Below are positions 1 through 51,998 of a stretch of DNA of 64,000 nt, piece after piece. The stretch covers positions 186,001 to 250,000 of the forward strand of contig NZ_JAMBOL010000001.1 of the NCBI RefSeq assembly GCF_023715605.1. Reading direction: 5' to 3'. Origin of the DNA: Halalkalibacter oceani (GTDB taxonomy: Bacteria; Bacillota; Bacilli; Bacillales; Bacillaceae_D). The notes under the pieces were generated by a model. It was given only the letters and a program-made list of their open reading frames with translations. It did not search any database and was not told where the DNA came from. The first letter of the stretch is position 1, and every line of letters starts with the position of its first letter. The position numbers and the translations under genes are program-made.

Positions 1-1
1 A

Positions 2-700
2 AATTTGTACGATCACGCGCAAAAGACTTTTATTCAGCATGCTTCTCATGAATTAAAAACCCCGATTATGGTCATTAAAAGCTACGCTCATTCGGTAAAA
101 GATGGCATTATGCCGAAGGAAAATATGGAAAAAACGATGGACGTCATAGTTGAAGAAGCGAACCGGATGGAGCGCCGCGTGATTGATATGCTTTATTATA
201 CGAAGCTTGACTCACTCAAGGAAGAAACGCCGAAGCATGAGGATCTTGTCTTTGGCGACCTTGCCTTTCAAATTGAAGAACGCTTCCGCGTCCAGCGAGA
301 GGATGTGAAGATTCTCGTTGAAGGAGCGGATACGCGCTTCAAAGGGGACCGTGAACAACTGGAGGTTTTGCTTGAGAACCTCGTTGAAAATGCGTTACGC
401 TATGCGCAAGATACGATCTGGATTAAAGCCGAAGCAGATGAACAGCGGACGAAAATTATCGTTGAGAATAACGGGGAGCATATCCCGGCCAGCGACTTGC
501 CACAGCTTTTTAATCCATTTTATAAGGGGAACAAAGGGAAGTTTGGTCTTGGGCTGGCGATTGTAAAACGGATTTCAGAGCTGCACAATGGCTATCCGAA
601 AGTCGAAAACAGCGATGTTGGCGTCAGATTTGTCGTGACGATTCCGAAGCAGGAAACTGAGCAGGGCAAGGCGGCGCGCCGGCATAAAAGGAAGGCTTAG
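2..700 (+). CDS. cssS: Sensor histidine kinase, CssS-like (5' end outside window)
   Basis: C-terminal about 230 residues of a membrane sensor kinase; the reading frame is open to the left edge, so the sensor and HAMP parts lie outside the window. The dimerisation box with the phospho-acceptor His reads HASHELKTPIMVIKSYAHS near the start, followed by an HATPase domain with the N box (ENLVENALRYA) and G box (GKFGLGLAIVKR). The His-box region and the KDGIMP segment closely resemble B. subtilis CssS, the kinase that senses misfolded secreted proteins. That fits prsA lying 2 kb downstream, but assignment to CssS rather than another HAMP kinase is inference. Confidence 0.75.
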   Translation, partial: NLYDHAQKTFIQHASHELKTPIMVIKSYAHSVKDGIMPKENMEKTMDVIVEEANRMERRVIDMLYYTKLDSLKEETPKHEDLVFGDLAFQIEERFRVQREDVKILVEGADTRFKGDREQLEVLLENLVENALRYAQDTIWIKAEADEQRTKIIVENNGEHIPASDLPQLFNPFYKGNKGKFGLGLAIVKRISELHNGYPKVENSDVGVRFVVTIPKQETEQGKAARRHKRKA

Positions 701-776
701 ACGCGGCGCTTGTTACTTGAAGATCCGGGACGGGGAGAGCGAGCCTGTCAACTGAATGAGCCTTCTCAAAATCAGG

Positions 777-815
777 GGATGTGTCAAAAGGAAAAACAAC
801 CTTTTGGCACATCCC
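777..815 (+). terminator. Rho-independent terminator after the kinase gene
   Basis: A 15-bp stem with one mismatch (GGATGTG.CAAAAGG against CCTTTTG.CACATCC) encloses an A-rich loop. The T-run is weak. The core CAAAAGG/CCTTTTG and the AACAACC loop edge recur in other terminators of this window. Confidence 0.6.
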
Positions 816-873
816 TCTATGCTATACTTATAGAAAAGAGACGATTAGCGATGAAGGAGAGGTTGATGAATTA

Positions 874-1833
874 ATGGGAAAAGGGATTCGTTTTCAACAG
901 GTCGGCGACCGCGTTGAAACCTATTATTTAATTAAATCGGCGACAAAAGGGATTGCGAGCAACAATAAACCTTTTTTAACGCTCATTCTTTGTGATCATA
1001 CAGGGGAAATTGAAGCGAAGCTGTGGGGCGCTTCCCCTGAAGATGAAGCGACGTTTAAAAGCAGGGTCATCGTACATATCCAAGGGGAAGTAACGGAATA
1101 TAGAGGCCGGCTGCAAATGAAAATTAGCAGTATCCGGCCAACGAGCGCGATCGACCAGGTGAAGGTTGCTGATTTTGTTCGCTCCGCTCCGATGGCTCCT
1201 GCTGAAATGCTGGAGCAAATCACGCAATATATTTTTGAAATGAAGAATGCTAATATTCAACGGATTACCCGCCATCTTCTGAAAAAGCATCAGGAGGCTT
1301 TCCTCGAATCACCGGCAGCGACGAAAAACCACCATGAATTTGCCTCGGGCCTTGCTTATCACGTTGTCTGCATGTTAAATGTCGCCAAAAGCCTTGCTGC
1401 GCTTTATCCGAGCCTTGATACCGACTTGCTCTATGCCGGGGTTATTCTCCATGATTTAGGAAAAGTACGCGAGCTTTCCGGGGCGATTGATACGACGTAT
1501 ACATTAGAGGGAAAGCTGCTTGGTCATATTTCGATTATCGTCAATGAAATTGCCGAAGCCGCAAAGGAGCTTGGAATTGAAGGGGAAGAAGTGTTAATGC
1601 TGCAGCATATCGCTCTGAGCCATCACGGCAAAGGAGAATGGGGCAGTCCAAAGGCGCCTGTGCTGCGTGAAGCGGAAGTTCTCCATATGATTGATAACAT
1701 TGATGCGAAAATGAATATGATGGATCGCGCGCTTGAGCGGGTTCAGCCGGGAGAATTTTCCGAGCGGATCATGCCAATGGAAAACAGAACCTTCTATAAA
1801 CCGAGCTTTCATGAAGCGCCGCTTGATCTTTAA
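874..1833 (+). CDS. yhaM: 3'-5' exoribonuclease YhaM
   Basis: 319-residue homologue of B. subtilis YhaM (314 aa), a 3'-to-5' exonuclease that degrades RNA and some DNA. An N-terminal OB-fold (about 15-90) precedes an HD domain (about 160-290) with metal-binding residues in KNHHEF, the HD of [14 protein letters not shown], and [13 protein letters not shown] chose the ATG at 874 because AAGGAGAGG lies upstream and the family begins M-x-KGI; the frame is open further upstream only through a terminator hairpin. It sits next to yhaL and prsA as in B. subtilis. Confidence 0.95.
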
Positions 1834-1900
1834 TTCTAGTTCTAAACCTCCGGGCTTGTACATAGATATACAGTAGTACAAGCTGCATGGAGGGAAGGAA

Positions 1901-2206
1901 ATGGAAACAAAACAAAAAAACACACGACGGGCATTATGGTTGTTAGCTGTTTTAGTACTCGCATTTCTCTTGACTCAAACAAGACTTGGTATGATCCTTT
2001 TTTCAAGTCCCTGGTGGGTTTATCTTGTCATCATCGGAATTATCGTCAGTGGCTATTTCTCGCTGAAATATACGTTGGAGGACAAACGGTACGAGCAGGA
2101 ATGGATTGAAAGTGAAGGCAAGGTCTACCTTGAGCGGATGGCGGCCGAAAAGGATCGGAGAAATCATATGAAAGAAGCTGTCTCCAAGGCGAAAAACACG
2201 CTCTAA
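1901..2206 (+). CDS. yhaL: Sporulation protein YhaL family
   Basis: A 101-residue membrane protein with two predicted transmembrane segments (about 10-28 and 36-53) and a charged C-terminal tail with the WIE.EG..Y.ERM pattern of the YhaL family. B. subtilis YhaL is shorter (about 70 aa) and belongs to the sporulation programme; its molecular role is not established. The start has a good ribosome binding site (GGAGGGAAGGAA). It lies between yhaM and prsA, the order known from B. subtilis, which supports the call. Confidence 0.8.
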   Translation: METKQKNTRRALWLLAVLVLAFLLTQTRLGMILFSSPWWVYLVIIGIIVSGYFSLKYTLEDKRYEQEWIESEGKVYLERMAAEKDRRNHMKEAVSKAKNTL

Positions 2207-2358
2207 AGACGGATGAAAAAAACGAGAGCGGGTCAAAAGTATTTCACCTACATGACTATCCGAACAAAGGAAAAGAGGGGAAGCCGCCGCTCCTGAAAGC
2301 GTGCCCCCCATCCCGGTAGCGAGGCCGAAGAGCCGGACCCCTGACTACGAAACAAAAA

Positions 2359-2430
2359 GAGCTTGAGACAAAATTAGCTTTGAACCTATTGGCAATGGCT
2401 TTAAAAGATCGTAGGGGTTCCACTCATTGC
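2359..2430 (+). repeat. Dispersed intergenic repeat, short copy (a)
   Basis: Starts with GAGCTTGAGACAAAA, then TAGCTTTGAACCTATTGGCA and ATGGCT, and ends with AAAGATCGT followed by GGTTCCACTCATTG. The same left and right blocks recur at 35337-35459 (with an internal hairpin), 49106-49190 and, inverted, 51886-51998. This copy lacks the inner hairpin, so it looks like a deletion derivative or a core form. It lies just before the yhaL/prsA terminator. Confidence 0.75.
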
Positions 2431-2431
2431 T

Positions 2432-2484
2432 AAGGGGCCGGGAAAAAGGTGAAAAAACAACCTTTTTCCCGGCCCCTTTTTTTA
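2432..2484. terminator. Bidirectional terminator between yhaL and prsA
   Basis: A long GC-rich hairpin (AAGGGGCCGGGAAAAAGGT paired with ACCTTTTTCCCGGCCCCTT) followed by a T-run on the plus strand and, from its own A-tract, one on the minus strand. It separates the converging genes yhaL and prsA. Confidence 0.85.
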
Positions 2485-6509: not shown

Positions 6510-6698
6510 ATGGAAGCATTTATTTTATTACTGATTTCCGTTTGTTTACTTTCCATATACGGTTTTATATATGTGGCTTACCGGCTGCTTCGGAAAGTGA
6601 AGCAGGAGGAAAAGTCACAATTTAAAAAGACGTTTGTCATCCTGTTGTTCCTCGCCGTATTGAGCGGCTCAAGCGCCACTTGGCTCGTTCTTCCATAA
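6510..6698 (+). CDS. Small two-helix membrane protein, unknown (62 aa)
   Basis: 62 residues with hydrophobic segments at about 3-24 and 44-61 and a basic/acidic loop RLLRKVKQEEKSQFKK between. The start has AAGGAGGGG at good spacing. B. subtilis has yhaH and trpP at about this place, but this is neither. Family not recognised. Confidence 0.65.
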   Translation: MEAFILLLISVCLLSIYGFIYVAYRLLRKVKQEEKSQFKKTFVILLFLAVLSGSSATWLVLP

Positions 6699-6756
6699 GA
6701 ACGATAAGGCGAAAGAACCGGCTTCTTATTATTGTGCAATACCGGATGTCCCCATT

Positions 6757-7833
6757 TTAACGACGATAATTCTTCATATAGTCACTCAGCGCGACACAGG
6801 CTTCCAGCGGAACAGCGTTATAAGTGGAGGCGCGGCAGCCTCCGACGGAACGATGTCCGTTTAGACCGACAAAGCCGAGTTCCTTCGCCTTGGCAAGGAA
6901 GCGTTTATTCTCTTCCTCACTAGGCAGGTTGAACGTTATGTTCATGAGAGAGCGTGATTCTTTTTCGGCATGCCCGCGATAGAATCCGTCGCTTTCGTCG
7001 ATTGCGTCATAGATCAGCTTCGCTTTTTCTTCATTTTTTCTTTCAATCGCGTCAATTCCGCCCTGGTCTTTGACCCATTGCAGCACTTGATTTAGCATAT
7101 AAATCGAGAATGTCGGCGGGGTATGATAAAGGGAATTCGTCTCACTATGCGTCCGGTAGCGTAGCAGTGTCGGCACATGATCAACTTCTTCCTCAAGAAG
7201 ATCCTCACGAATAATAACGATCGTCACTCCGGCAGGACCGAGGTTTTTCTGAGCGCCGGCATAGATCATACCGAACTTTTCAATTTCAATTTTCCGTGAA
7301 AGAATATCACTCGACATGTCAGCAATTAACGGGGCATGCGTGACGGTCGGAAATTCCTTCCATTGCGTTCCAAAAATCGTATTATTGGAAGTAAGGTGAA
7401 CATAAGCGTCATTCTCGTTGTAGGTGATAGCATCGAGCGCCGGAATGGAGCGGTACTGCGTCTCCTTCGTAGAAGCACCGACAGCCGTTTCCCCGAGCAG
7501 CTTTCCTTCTTTTAGCGCTTTCTCGGACCACGAGCCTGTTAACAAATAGTTTCCGATCTTCCCGGGCTTTAAAAATTGCAGCGGGACCATCGCGAATTGG
7601 AGGCTGGCGCCGCCCTGTAGGAAGAGCACCTTATATGAATCGGGAATAGCAAGCAGTTCCTTGAGTAAGGCGATTGCTTCTTCATGAACAGCTTCAAAAT
7701 CTTTGCTGCGGTGACTTAATTCCATCACGGACATGCCAGTACCATTGAAATTTGTTAATTCAGCCTGCGCTTTCTCTAAGACGCTTTTTGGCAAAGCTGA
7801 GGGGCCAGCATTAAAGTTAAAAACATCTTGCAT
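6757..7833 (-). CDS. serC: Phosphoserine aminotransferase
   Basis: 358-residue PLP enzyme of class V that converts 3-phosphohydroxypyruvate and glutamate to phosphoserine in serine synthesis. FNFNAGPSALP at the N-terminus, LFLQGGASLQFAMVP, the PLP lysine in YAGAQKNLGPAG and the C-terminal GLNGHRSVGGCRAS are family signatures. The frame continues to a GTG at 7842, but that codon overlaps the AAAGGAG site, so the ATG at 7833 is chosen. The position between hpr and hit is as in B. subtilis. Confidence 0.95.
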   Translation of the reverse strand: MQDVFNFNAGPSALPKSVLEKAQAELTNFNGTGMSVMELSHRSKDFEAVHEEAIALLKELLAIPDSYKVLFLQGGASLQFAMVPLQFLKPGKIGNYLLTGSWSEKALKEGKLLGETAVGASTKETQYRSIPALDAITYNENDAYVHLTSNNTIFGTQWKEFPTVTHAPLIADMSSDILSRKIEIEKFGMIYAGAQKNLGPAGVTIVIIREDLLEEEVDHVPTLLRYRTHSETNSLYHTPPTFSIYMLNQVLQWVKDQGGIDAIERKNEEKAKLIYDAIDESDGFYRGHAEKESRSLMNITFNLPSEEENKRFLAKAKELGFVGLNGHRSVGGCRASTYNAVPLEACVALSDYMKNYRR

Positions 7834-7951
7834 CTTCTCCACTCCTTTAACTCTTCACCACATTAATAGGTGTTAGATATGATTATCGTACCATAGTTTC
7901 ACCAAAAAATGCTTAGTTTTTTATGTATTTTCAGAATGTTCAAGAGTTAAA

Positions 7952-17924: not shown

Positions 17925-18053
17925 AGAGAAGGCATCGGCTTTGTTTTGGGCAGTTTGATCTTCACCCGTCGGATTGTCAGAAACCGGCTCTCCCTGAAAA
18001 ACTTCCTTTTTCAGCAGCTTCCTCACAACGGGCATTAAGAAGATAGCTGAGAG
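17925..18053 (-). pseudogene. Possible remnant of an MFS transporter C-terminus
   Basis: On the minus strand 43 codons read LSAIFLMPVVRKLLKKE, then a hydrophilic tail (VFQGEPVSDNPTGEDQ and more). The first part looks like the end of a last transmembrane helix with a basic stop-transfer, as in MFS drug transporters. The frame is closed by a TGA two codons upstream inside the liaR terminator and runs into liaR at the other end. So it can only be a fragment, or chance. Confidence 0.3.
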
Positions 18054-31885: not shown

Positions 31886-33169
31886 GTGTTTGTCGATAAA
31901 GTCAAGGTTTATGTAAAAGGTGGCGACGGAGGAAATGGAATGGTTGCGTTCCGTCGAGAAAAGTACGTGCCCGATGGGGGCCCGGCCGGCGGTGACGGCG
32001 GAAAAGGCGCAAGCGTCGTCTTTGAAGTGGAGGAAGGTCTGCGAACGTTGATGGACTTTCGTTATAACCGGCATTTTAAAGCGGATCGGGGAGAGCATGG
32101 CCGCCCGAAAGGTCAGCATGGTAAAAATGCGGAGGATATGGTCGTCAAGGTGCCTCCGGGAACGACGGTCGTTGATGAACAAACAGGACAGGTTATCGCT
32201 GATTTAACCGAACATGGTCAGCGCGCTGTTATCGCCAAAGGCGGCCGTGGTGGCCGGGGAAACATCCGCTTTGCGACGCCTGCCAATCCCGCACCCGAAA
32301 TCGCGGAAAATGGCGAGCCGGGAACAGAGCGCGAAGTCGTTCTTGAGCTGAAGGTGCTCGCTGATGTTGGCCTTGTCGGGTTTCCGAGCGTTGGTAAGTC
32401 AACATTGCTCTCGGTCGTCTCGGCGGCCAAGCCGAAAATCGCCGATTATCATTTTACGACGATCACGCCTAACTTGGGCGTCGTCGAAACAGAGGATAAC
32501 AGAAGCTTCGTCATGGCTGATTTGCCTGGATTAATCGAAGGGGCGCATGAAGGAGTCGGCCTCGGTCATCAGTTTTTGCGTCATATCGAGCGGACGCGCG
32601 TCATCGTTCATGTGATTGACATGTCGGCTCTTGAAGGGCGCGACCCTTATGAGGATTATGTGCTGATTAATGATGAATTGAAGCAATACAATTTACGTCT
32701 GTTGGAGAGGCCGCAGTTGATTGTTGCCAATAAAATGGACATGCCCGAGGCGGAAGAAAACCTCAAGCGCTTCAAGGAACAGCTTGAGGACGATCACCCT
32801 GTATTTCCGATTTCAGCGATTACGAGAGAGGGCGTACGGGAGCTGCTCTTAACGATCGCCGATAAAATTGAGCAGACGCCGGAATTTCCGCTTCATGAGG
32901 AAACAGAGGAATCAACCCGGGTTGTCTACAAGCATCAGAAGGAGGAAGCCCGGTTTGTGCTATCGCGTGATGATGATGGCGTCTTTGTCATCTCAGGGCC
33001 GGAAATCGAGCGCCTCTTCAAAATGACCGACTTCTCAAGAGACGAATCGGTCCGCCGCTTCGCCCGCCAAATGCGGCACATGGGAATCGACGAAGCACTC
33101 CGCCAACGCGGCGCCAAAGACGGCGACCTCGTCCGCATCCTGAAGTTCGAATTTGAATTTATAGACTAG
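31886..33169 (+). CDS. obg: Obg/CgtA GTPase
   Basis: 427 residues. Gly-rich Obg fold 1-158; G domain with G1 [10 protein letters not shown]3 DLPGLIEG, G4 NKMD; C-terminal OCT domain from about 345. Ribosome-assembly and stress GTPase, essential for growth and sporulation in B. subtilis. GTG start with AGGTGAAGAAAG. Its 3' end is followed at once by the hairpin that begins the repeat array. Confidence 0.97.
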
Positions 33170-33206
33170 ACAAGAACCCCAGCCCGCCCTTGGCTGGGGT
33201 TCTTGT
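33170..33206 (+). terminator. obg terminator, also first hairpin of the array
   Basis: CAAGAACCCCAGCC pairs with GGCTGGGGTTCTTG, 14 bp. In the later array units the right arm is kept but the left arm's CAAGAACCC is replaced, so only this copy is a full terminator. Confidence 0.75.
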
Positions 33207-33700
33207 CGTAGCGAAGAGCGAAGCCGCTGCAAGGTTTTGAAGTCCGCAAGGAACGGGGTTCTCCTTGCGGACGGGCAACGAGCGAGCCGGAGCAGAGTCA
33301 GCCCGCCCTTGGCTGGGGTTCTTGTCGTAGCGAAGAGCGAAGCCGCTGCAAGGTTTTGAAGTCCGCAAGGAACGGGGTTCTCCTTGAGGACGGGCAGCGA
33401 GCGAGCCGGAGCAGAGTCAGCCCGCCCAAGGCTGGGGGTTCTTGTCGTAGCGAAGAGCGAAGCCGCTGCGGGGTTTTTTGAAGTCCGCAAGGAACGGGTT
33501 TCTCCTTGAGGACGGGCAGCGAGCGAGCCGGAGCAGAGTCAGCCCGCCCAAGGCTGGGGGTTCTTGTCGTAGCGAAGAGCGAAGCCGCTGCGAGGTTTTG
33601 AAGTCCGCAAGGAACGGGTTTCTCCTTGAGGACGGGCAGCGAGCGAGCCGGAGCAGAGTCAGCCTGCCCTTGGCTGGGGGTTCTTGTCGTAGCGAAGAGC
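33175..33700. repeat. Tandem array of about 120 bp, five units, after obg
   Basis: The landmark GTCGTAGCGAAGAGCG starts at 33205, 33324, 33444, 33566 and 33686, giving periods of 119, 120, 122 and 120; the fifth unit is cut short. Each unit has GCCGCTGC, a GGTTTT spacer, a hairpin GTCCGCAAGGA / TCCTTGCGGAC (right arm TCCTTGAGGAC in units 2-4), GAGCGAGCCGGAGCAGAGTC, and the CAGCC...GGCTGGGG stem. Because the period is near a multiple of three, open frames cross it on both strands; they look accidental. Confidence 0.9.
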
Positions 33701-33915
33701 GGGAGCTTTCGTAACTCGAAGAAGAGTAATGGCTCCGCGCGTTGCGCGCCTTGCTTCGAGAAATCCACTCGTAGCAAGGCTTTCAAAATCAGGCAACGGC
33801 TACGCTCATTACGAAAAAGCTGCTGAAAAAGTGTAAATCGTACTTTTTCAGCAGCTTCTTGTCTCTTCGTGGGAGACAGGTTTTCATTAGTAAGGGACAA
33901 ATTTGGGGGATGATG
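33701..33915. other. Intergenic stretch between the array and the pheBA promoter
   Basis: Contains CTCGAAG/CTTCGAG and GCGCG/CGCGC short dyads, then a clear terminator-like hairpin at 33824-33861 (GCTGCTGAAAAAGT paired with ACTTTTTCAGCAGC and a T-containing tail). No gene seen. Confidence 0.6.
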
Positions 33916-35336: not shown

Positions 35337-35459
35337 GAGCTTGAGAGGGCGAGACAAAACTAGCTTTGAACCTATTGGCAATGGCTTCATACCCCACAAG
35401 CCCGTTGTGAGACATCTACTCACAACGGGCTTTAACAAATCGTGGCGGTTCCGCTCATA
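35337..35459 (+). repeat. Dispersed intergenic repeat, full copy (b)
   Basis: Left block GAGCTTGAGAGGGCGAGACA then TAGCTTTGAACCTATTGGCA; internal hairpin 35398-35432 with a 14-bp perfect stem AAGCCCGTTGTGAG / CTCACAACGGGCTT; right block AATCGTGGCGGTTCCGCTCAT. Type copy of the family seen also at 2359, 49106 and 51886. It lies between pheA and its terminator. Confidence 0.85.
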
Positions 35460-35510
35460 GCCTCTTTTAGCTGGGCCATTCAAGTGATGGGCCGGCTTCC
35501 CATGTTAGGC

Positions 35511-41121: not shown

Positions 41122-42567
41122 GTGAAAATTCACATTGTCCAAAAAGGGGATACGCTCTGGAAGCTCGCCAAAAAATACGGTGTTGATTTTGAACAGTTAA
41201 AAGCCGCTAATACACAACTCGCAAACCCAGATATGATTATGCCCGGTATGAAAATAAAAATTCCAACAGGAAGCGTACCTGTAAAAAAAGAATCTCAGCA
41301 GGCAGCTAATGCCCCAGTGAAGGAACAGCAGAAACTATACCAGAAGGAAGGCCCTGTGCCTCCACCAACGACGACCACGCCTGCAGCTAAAGAAACACCG
41401 CAGCCGGCGCCGCAGCCAAAGCCGGAGGTGCCGAAAGCACCGCCGAAAATGAATCAGCCAATGCCAAAGCCGGAGATGCCGAAAGCACCACCGAAGATGC
41501 ATCAACCACAGCCGAAGCCGGAAATGCCGAAAGCGCCGCCGAAGATGCATCAACCACAGCCGAAGCCGGAAATGCCGAAAGCGCCGCCGAAAATGCATCA
41601 ACCACAGCCGAAGCCGGAAATGCCAAAGGCACCGTCGAAAATGAATCAGCCAATTTTACAAGCACCGACATCACAACCTTCTATGCCTCAGCATAGTCAG
41701 AAATACGATGTGCACTTATACCAGCCACAAACAAAGCCCATGCAGTCGCCGATTCCAAAAGCGCCAAAGCCACCAAAAGCAAATCAGGCTCCGCAAGCGG
41801 CAAATGGGCAGCCAAACCAGCAGGCCCCGCAAATGATGCCACAGAGTCAGCCGAACCAGATGCCGCCGCAAATGATGCCACAGAGTCAGCCGAACCAGAT
41901 GCCGCCGCAAATGATGCCGCAGAGTCAGCCGAATCAAATGCCGCCGCAAATGATGCCACAGAGCCAGCCGAACCAAATGTCGCCGCAAATGATGGCGCAA
42001 AGCCAGCCGAATCAAATGCCACCGCAAATGATGGCGCAAAGCCAGCCGAACCAAATGTCGCCGCAAATGATGGCGCAAAGCCAGCCGAACCAAATGCCGC
42101 CGCAAATGATGCCGCAGAGCCAGCCGAACCAAATGCCGCCGCAAATGATGCCGCAGAGCCAGCCGAACCAGATGCCGCCGCAAATGATGCCGCAGAGCCA
42201 GCCGAACCAGATGTCACCGCAAATGATGCCGCAGCAATTTGAGCAATACGCTCACCATCCGGAGCCGCTGCCAATGATGCAGGGGGCGTTTGACATGCCT
42301 TCTCCATATTTTCAGCCAGTCGGACCGCTTATGACGGGCTACGGTAATGGCTGTGCGCCAATGGGACCTTTAAATGGGCCATTGTATCAGGCGCCACAAA
42401 CGCTGCCTGCTTATATACCGCCAGTGCAAATGGGAAGTGATTGTGTTCAATGCGGTCCCGTGGAACCAATTATGTACGGACCAAATGGGCAAATGATGTC
42501 CGTTAAAGATTTTGAACGGAATGAGCAAATAAATAATTATCAGGAAACGGACGATTACGACGACTAA
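41122..42567 (+). CDS. safA: Spore coat/cortex-interface protein SafA-like, LysM
   Basis: 481 residues. N-terminal LysM domain 1-50 (KIHIVQKGDTLWKLAKKYGV, MIMPGMKIKIPTG) that targets the forespore cortex. Residues about 90-175 have a Pro/Lys-rich 16-residue repeat (MPKAPPKMHQPQPKPE and variants). About 235-370 has ten copies of a 13-residue Gln/Met/Pro repeat (QSQPNQMPPQMMP; the A and S variants are frequent). The tail is Pro/Tyr/Met-rich with Cys. SafA nucleates the inner coat; position after nadA agrees with B. subtilis. GTG start with AGAGGAGGG. Confidence 0.85.
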   Translation: MKIHIVQKGDTLWKLAKKYGVDFEQLKAANTQLANPDMIMPGMKIKIPTGSVPVKKESQQAANAPVKEQQKLYQKEGPVPPPTTTTPAAKETPQPAPQPKPEVPKAPPKMNQPMPKPEMPKAPPKMHQPQPKPEMPKAPPKMHQPQPKPEMPKAPPKMHQPQPKPEMPKAPSKMNQPILQAPTSQPSMPQHSQKYDVHLYQPQTKPMQSPIPKAPKPPKANQAPQAANGQPNQQAPQMMPQSQPNQMPPQMMPQSQPNQMPPQMMPQSQPNQMPPQMMPQSQPNQMSPQMMAQSQPNQMPPQMMAQSQPNQMSPQMMAQSQPNQMPPQMMPQSQPNQMPPQMMPQSQPNQMPPQMMPQSQPNQMSPQMMPQQFEQYAHHPEPLPMMQGAFDMPSPYFQPVGPLMTGYGNGCAPMGPLNGPLYQAPQTLPAYIPPVQMGSDCVQCGPVEPIMYGPNGQMMSVKDFERNEQINNYQETDDYDD

Positions 42568-43726: not shown

Positions 43727-43776
43727 TGGCGTTGTCTGAGGGAACTCATTAAGCGAAAATAATTGGCGGACAATGA

Positions 43777-43818
43777 GCCGCTGAAAAAGGGAAAAACATC
43801 CTTTTTCAGCAGCTTTTG
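43777..43818 (+). terminator. Second terminator before bofC
   Basis: GC.GCTGAAAAAGG / CCTTTTTCAGC.GC with loop GAAAAACAT, then TTTT. Confidence 0.75.
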
Positions 43819-49105: not shown

Positions 49106-49190
49106 GAGCTTGAGACACAAAAAGAGTGAGCATGGAGTAACAGTGGGTATATTCTCGATGAGCAAGATCGTGGCGGTTCCACTCATTGCT
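49106..49190 (+). repeat. Dispersed intergenic repeat, partial copy (d)
   Basis: Left end GAGCTTGAGACA and right end AAGATCGTGGCGGTTCCACT then CATTG match the repeats at 2359 and 35337; the middle is divergent and has no hairpin. It lies between the yajC terminator and the yrzE-side terminator. Confidence 0.75.
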
Positions 49191-49197
49191 TAAGCTT

Positions 49198-49243
49198 AAG
49201 GGGCTGGGAAAAGGTAAAAAAACAACCTTTGTCCCAGCCCCTT
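49198..49243 (-). terminator. Terminator of the YrzE-like gene
   Basis: AAGGGGCTGGG.AAAGGT / ACCTTT.TCCCAGCCCCTT with loop ending AACA; on the minus strand it follows the YrzE-like gene. Confidence 0.8.
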
Positions 49244-49261
49244 GTTGTGTTTTTCTTTTCT

Positions 49262-51246: not shown

Positions 51247-51891
51247 ATGGATTATGGCACGATTATCCTGAGGACGATATTTATTTACTTCATCATACTC
51301 TTTGTGCTGCGCTTTATGGGCAAGCGCGAAATCGGGCAGCTTTCGGTGCTGGACTTTGTTGTCTCTATTATGATTGCCGAGCTTGCTGTCATTTCAATTG
51401 AAAATATTCAAGCACCGATGCTTCATACGATTTTGCCGATCGTCATCCTGTCGATCATTCAACTTGTGCTGGCGATCTTTTCCTTAAAAAGTGAACGGAT
51501 TCGGAAGCTCGTCGACGGAAAACCGTCTGTTTTGATCAATGGAGGGGAAATTGATGAGAAAGAAATGCGGAAGCAGCGCTATAATTTCGATGATTTGCTC
51601 ATTCAGTTGAGGCAGCAGAAGGTAAGCAAGCTCTCTGATGTCGAGTTTGCCATTTTAGAGCCGTCCGGAAAGCTGTCGGTCATTGAAAAGAAGCCCGATA
51701 AGGATGAGCCCGTAATGCCGCTGCCCCTCATCCTGGACGGCAAGGTGCAGGAAGACCACCTCAAACAAATTAACCAGACCTCCCTTTGGCTGCGCCAGCA
51801 AATGCGCAAGCTCGGCTATCGCGACATAAAAAAAATATCCTACTGCGCCCTAAAAGACCAAGACACATTCTTCGTCGACCTGAAACAATGA
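51247..51891 (+). CDS. DUF421/YetF-family membrane protein (YrbG-like)
   Basis: 214 residues. Three N-terminal transmembrane helices with the family motif RFMGKREIGQLSVLDFVVSI, then a cytoplasmic domain (GKPSVLINGGEIDEKEMRKQ, LSDVEFAILEPSGKLSVIEK). B. subtilis YrbG stands at this place. Function not firmly known. The last codons and the stop (CAATGA) coincide with the end of the inverted dispersed repeat copy, so the C-terminal residue may derive from the repeat. Confidence 0.85.
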   Translation: MDYGTIILRTIFIYFIILFVLRFMGKREIGQLSVLDFVVSIMIAELAVISIENIQAPMLHTILPIVILSIIQLVLAIFSLKSERIRKLVDGKPSVLINGGEIDEKEMRKQRYNFDDLLIQLRQQKVSKLSDVEFAILEPSGKLSVIEKKPDKDEPVMPLPLILDGKVQEDHLKQINQTSLWLRQQMRKLGYRDIKKISYCALKDQDTFFVDLKQ

Positions 51892-51998
51892 GCGGAACCG
51901 CCACGATCTTTTAAAGTCCGTTGTGAGTGAGTTTCTCACAACGGACTTGTGGCGAGTGGAGCCATTTGCCCCTAGGTCAAAGCGAGTTTTGTCTCAGA
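51886..51998 (-). repeat. Dispersed intergenic repeat, full inverted copy (e)
   Basis: Read on the minus strand: GAGACAAAACTCGCTTTGACC, a divergent stretch, hairpin AAGTCCGTTGTGAG / CTCACAACGGACTT (51914-51948), then TAAAAGATCGTGGCGGTTCC and GCTCATTG. Both arms differ from copy b by one compensatory pair (C-G to T-A). A second, rough partial copy (GAGCGGAACCGTCGC, ACGATCTTTTAAAG) follows to about 52050. Confidence 0.85.

Follow-up and report, generated by a model that had tools for sequence, protein, structure and literature searches.

What kind of element stands at position 35337 of this 64,000-nt stretch (hereafter the window), where a dispersed repeat carries an inner hairpin that had been described as showing compensatory change? 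The original prediction called it mobile or selected and non-coding, perhaps like the bcr repeats. A covariance model of the core was built from 42 diverse cores and applied to this genome, of a Halalkalibacter species close to H. oceani, and to genomes of the order; individual sites were compared with the nearest sister genome, H. oceani P106 (G007; H. oceani below).

All five positions proposed earlier (35337, 51886, 2358, 49106 and 43693) were recovered, the last two with weak model scores (Table 1), and the hairpin-less form at 2358 was real. The list was nevertheless incomplete, as the model added a core at 33723-33818 (+) and a four-unit array at 33205-33657 (-). The copies at 35337 and 51886, described as full, are genuine but both lack the terminator hairpin, a part that the earlier description omitted and that the 2358 copy keeps. 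The inner hairpin missing at 2358 seems to have been deleted between two GGCTT microhomologies. The unit at 33707-33858 belongs to a second high-copy subfamily with at least about 22 further copies in the genome among the matches listed (92-98% identity); H. oceani and G003 also carry copies of this type. At 17996-18033 and 43776-43815 lie additional relics of hairpins with TTTTTCAGCAGCTT arms, one of them joined to a CCTCACAACGGGC inner-stem arm.

Table 1. Copies and fragments of the repeat in the window.
Feature	Position	Strand	Covariance model	Parts
Element copy	35337-35467	+	E=1.8e-20	Left end 35337-35371 (AGGGCG insertion inside); core 35375-35467; arms of the inner hairpin at 35398-35411 and 35419-35432; terminator hairpin missing on the right
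Element copy	51879-51998	-	E=3.4e-23	Right terminator lost; inner stem with compensated C-G to T-A change; left end adjoined by 3' half of a second core
Second-subfamily copy	33707-33858	+	E=5.5e-22	Core 33723-33818; terminator-like hairpin 33818-33857
Tandem array, four diverged cores	33166-33700	-	E=8.6e-15 to 2.8e-13	Cores 33205-33296, 33324-33415, 33444-33537 and 33566-33657; truncated terminator arm joined to each; a single complete terminator hairpin, at the end of the array (about 33169-33207)
Short form, 118 nt	2358-2475	+	E=0.0012	Left end, core without inner hairpin, intact right terminator hairpin ending GGCCCC
Degraded copy	49106-49244	+	Weak match, E=0.16	Both ends visibly kept; left end GAGCTTGAGACA; core 3' half 49164-49190; terminator hairpin 49199-49244
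Inner hairpin alone, different loop	43693-43727	+	Weak match, E=0.34	

With relatives included, the full unit measured ~165-175 nt and comprised a left end (GAGCTTGAGACAAAACTAGC), a core of ~93 nt folding as a long nested hairpin, and a bidirectional, terminator-like 3' hairpin ending in GTCCCAGCCTC, the last arm of which forms the right end. Element lengths ranged from about 118 to 181 nt, and no copy carried a transposase of its own. The terminator hairpin joined to identical cores came in two co-ordinated versions, GGCTGGGAC/GTCCCAGCC and GGCTGTGAC/GTCACAGCC, and several unrelated end and terminator sequences were found around one core with the architecture unchanged. That the core is common to units with other ends suggests module exchange. 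Cores of H. okhensis (L125 463-607, L132 3245-3389, L102 849-993 and L081 4471-4616) were enlarged by an insert of ~50 nt in the loop of the inner hairpin; L125 and L132 had almost the same insert. In one H. oceani copy (L076 2963-3055) the inner hairpin was reversed relative to the family.

The genome gave at least 149 matches at E<=0.01, a few of which overlap, corresponding to roughly 140 or more sites in this alkaliphilic soil bacterium. These matches, with the covarying stems described below, are not chance. Among 299 genomes of the order, 15 had matches at 1e-5, mostly in high copy, distributed over 7 of 116 genera and several families; this patchy spread is what would be expected of a mobile element. 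Named loci bearing the element came from Halalkalibacter and close relatives, and tandem arrays occurred in several species. Plasmid records searched with a 170-nt consensus gave no match, and no earlier description of the repeat family in Halalkalibacter was found in the open-licence literature. Descent of a few copies from a recent segmental duplication, which the likeness of the genome copies might have suggested (mostly 86-92% identical to the query copy), is refuted by the unrelated flanks that each match has of its own. Perfect target duplications and presence in other genera and families also speak against it, and we give it practically no credence. Neither of the refuting conditions set at the outset, a lack of further copies or a segmental duplication, came true.

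Two end types were distinguished, and each shows the same behaviour in the miniature repeats as in IS1182-family elements. Target duplications of 8-9 bp go with the GAGGCCACTGAAAAAG end type. The GAGGCTGGGACAAAA end type, which is the window's own, has none and sits between an A-tract and a T-tract. Target-site duplications, proposed at the outset as a check on mobility, were scored in the 104 of 153 distinct copies with matching ends: 15 had perfect 8-bp duplications and 3 more had 7/8, against about 0.3% at 7/8 or better and about 0 perfect in 1210 swapped flanks. All 8-bp duplications were in copies of the GGCCACTGAAAAAG type or of near variants, and none in the window's subfamily, GAGCTTGAGACAAAA...GTCCCAGCCTC, in which 35 copies were inspected. 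Across 44 copies of the window type, A made up 69% of the 6 nt before the element and T made up 54% of the 6 nt after it, falling to about 30% farther out; these tracts resemble those of intrinsic terminators. L071 and L088 were clean nested insertions, with duplications TTTATCAT and TTTTACAT, into another Bacillaceae repeat, of which L044 shows a related uninterrupted example. The target repeat has ends GAGGTTGGGACAAAAGT and body CCCGCAGGAGTC (L088 about 6580-7920, L071 5360-5760, L044 1291-1529) and also occurs in another family of the order (G058).

IS1182 transposases (NF033551) divided into the same two end types as the miniature repeats. The elements L311, L312, L315 and L316 had GAGRCC..TGA.AAA ends and perfect 9-bp duplications in all four; the GAGGCCACTGAAAAAGT end was identical in the miniature repeats and L316. 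The elements L307, L308, L310 and L319 had ends G[AG]GGCTGGG[AC]CAWAA and were flanked by A-rich and T-rich sequence without a duplication. The reverse-complement end of L149/L310, GAGGCTGGGACAAAACTAGCTTT, had 15 consecutive bases in common with the left end of the window element (GACAAAACTAGCTTT), and the window-type left end differed from the nearest insertion sequence end at three positions near the tip. Target habits were matched accordingly: for the GGCTGGGAC type neither partner duplicates and both have A-tract/T-tract flanks, and for the GGCCACTG type both duplicate, at 8 bp in the MITEs versus 9 bp in the insertion sequences, a counter-point to the dependence of the MITEs on IS1182 transposases. 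Another is that the searches of this genome and of H. oceani turned up fragments of IS1182 transposases and no intact copy; intact ones were present in G003, G009 and other relatives. An intact partner in the same genome is not required for past mobility.

Empty sites in relatives were sought in H. oceani. Among the comparable sites, four were shared (L004, L016, L022 and L023), and six lacked the element there (L001, which is window 35337, L011, L013, L028, L029 and L030); a terminator-like hairpin folds at all six. In the L013/L251 pair, a plain H. oceani hairpin, GCCCGGGGCAAAAGGT...ACCTTTTGCCCCGGGC, occupies precisely the place that the element has in this genome. In the L028/L250 pair, this genome keeps the 5' arm (AAAGCCCGTAACG) and loop of the H. 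oceani hairpin, and the element replaces the end of its 3' arm. Judged from these alignments, the direction is clearly insertion here and not loss in H. oceani at L028, and likely so at the other sites. The retained arm was clearly seen only at L028; elsewhere the element could have replaced the terminator by another route. The two flanks were no more complementary to each other than swapped flanks (4.15 vs 4.27) and, A/T richness apart, kept no specific relic of a target hairpin, so that the case for entry into hairpins is made from A/T-tract composition, the sister-species sites and L028.

Other differences from H. oceani were recorded. The 33707-33858 copy is absent from the orthologous site, the tandem array at 33166-33700 is shorter there, and near 51886 one unit here corresponds to several in tandem (at least two to three). 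At L208/L113 the H. oceani element was truncated by an AAGCC microhomology deletion. Window 1-1965 was 99.8% identical to H. oceani (L079) and other stretches about 80-94%, which suggests recent recombination at 1-1965. At 41410-42315, 48-nt and 39-nt in-frame repeats lie within a 481-aa ORF (41122-42567); this region could be aligned with H. oceani only by shifting many copies, which points to a probable change in the number or order of the repeats.

Most copies lay at gene 3' ends, with the upstream gene co-oriented in 20 of 27 classified copies. For these 27, simple ORF logic gave a call for both neighbours: 13 lay in convergent gaps and 1 in a divergent gap; gaps in the window comprised 9 convergent, 6 divergent and 19 tandem. 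Gene calls were mechanical, and six copies were placed 'inside' short ORFs, which are probably spurious.

The compensatory change noted earlier was borne out: the arms AAGCCCGTTGTGAG/CTCACAACGGGCTT at 35398-35432 correspond to AAGTCCGTTGTGAG/CTCACAACGGACTT in the 51886-51998 copy. Over the family, 16 of 23 stem pairs showed changes on both sides, and 95.4% of stem cells were paired, compared with 84.7% after shuffling and 26-49% after sliding. Pair types were counted in the covariance-model alignments over all copies (about 3300 stem cells, which count sequences and not independent events), giving 3185 Watson-Crick, 33 G-U and 60 A-C. Outside this genome the counts were 27 G-U vs 55 A-C (p=0.003), the direction opposite to that for RNA on the modelled strand. 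Stems vary almost only by Watson-Crick pairs, with conservation of the bases in bulges and loops. Single-side changes outnumbered double ones in young copies (22 versus 13), so correction is not immediate. Since selection on RNA of the modelled strand should favour G-U, and G-U did not exceed A-C, the palindrome would seem to be kept as DNA; from these counts we infer a constraint that looks DNA-level and not RNA-level. Mild selection on RNA of the opposite strand is possible.

These counts bear on whether the family is a structured non-coding RNA (an sRNA or a 3'-UTR regulator) that carries its own terminator, has multiplied through duplication and is maintained by selection on RNA folding. 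Strong stem covariation, the terminator-like hairpin at the 3' end and the position of most copies at gene 3' ends in the sense of the upstream gene would all fit such an RNA. The G-U deficit runs the other way, Rfam returned nothing at gathering score and sub-threshold hits only, the inner hairpin is reversed in L076, and target duplications with high, patchy copy number are traits of mobile elements. An RNA of this kind is accordingly improbable, and of the two natures first proposed for the repeat, mobile or selected, it is mobility that stood, in view of the target duplications, nested insertions, species-specific sites and copy number.

The core may instead be a folded-DNA recognition site of a recombinase or host protein, REP/BIME- or attC-like, for which IS1182-type ends are one of several vehicles. 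Such a site would account for one core architecture between different end and terminator sequences, for conserved bulge and loop bases on stems that vary by Watson-Crick exchange, and for tandem arrays in several species. The visible insertion boundaries, however, are the IS1182-type ends and not the core, and a search of the genome for the Y1/RAYT transposase (Y1_Tnp, PF01797), in which positive controls were detected, gave no match, so that RAYT/REP mobilisation was set aside; overall this reading is unlikely. By eye, the conserved bases also do not fit the boxes of integron attC sites.

The best explanation is that the repeats are non-autonomous, IS1182-dependent MITEs with a terminator-site habit and a palindrome kept as DNA, which on present sequence comparisons we consider probable. 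They apparently spread by borrowing the cutting enzyme of IS1182 transposons. The window subfamily would enter terminator hairpins and remove them in part or whole, a habit published for IS1272/TnSha1, and insertion would be tolerated because the element's own 3' hairpin takes over termination in both directions. The tandem arrays, like the short forms, may arise by recombination or slippage between repeated terminator arms, together with microhomology deletion. The nested hairpin would be kept as a palindrome if pairing is needed in single-stranded or cruciform DNA, or alternatively through template switching that corrects one arm by copying the other. A simple MITE history does not explain one core with several unrelated ends. 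Tentatively, the core might be an independent folded-DNA module, compensated almost purely by Watson-Crick pairs, present in several Bacillales families and common to MITEs with two insertion modes; it may be recognised in folded form by a putative protein that aids the spread of the elements or shields the terminator site.

If the MITE reading is correct, an insertion sequence family yields selfish elements that settle on gene terminators and bring a replacement, a way for the 3' ends of bacterial genes to be rewritten throughout a genome with little apparent cost. The family would also be a clean case in which covariation in an intergenic repeat should not count as proof of functional RNA, the G-U test pointing to DNA. 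The sister pair of this genome and H. oceani makes both the terminator-replacement and the DNA-not-RNA claims directly testable.

The known systems closest to the element include IS1182-family MITEs. Those of Methanosarcina acetivorans, partnered with ISMac2, are 160-169 bp in 7-14 copies (PMC3852290); they are similar in size, non-autonomous, and have IS1182-type inverted ends with target duplications present or absent. They differ in being archaeal and in having 25-26 bp inverted repeats, and covarying nested cores or terminator replacement are not noted in the part of that account drawn on here. Likeness to the bcr repeats held loosely. bcr1-bcr18 of the Bacillus cereus group are chromosomal, 100-400 bp long, with up to 130 copies of bcr1 and mobility tied to TTTAT motifs (PMC6542083); the present repeats are likewise chromosomal, short, high-copy and mobile in character, but have IS1182-type ends and, in place of a TTTAT insertion motif, varied 8-mer duplications or terminator sites, which set them apart on the features tested. 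REP/BIME and ERIC-type repeats (PMC3733652, PMC2267715) are similarly intergenic, palindromic and high-copy, whereas the present family has defined transposon ends and target duplications, in a genome with no RAYT/Y1 transposase. IS1272/TnSha1 of staphylococci, also of the IS1182 family, insert into the stems of terminators, which they delete in part, and make no target duplication (PMC4923244). The window subfamily resembles them in its apparent terminator-hairpin stem sites, its lack of target duplication and the apparent partial deletion of the target hairpin; IS1272/TnSha1 carry a transposase, whereas the present element consists only of ends, a palindromic core and its own terminator.
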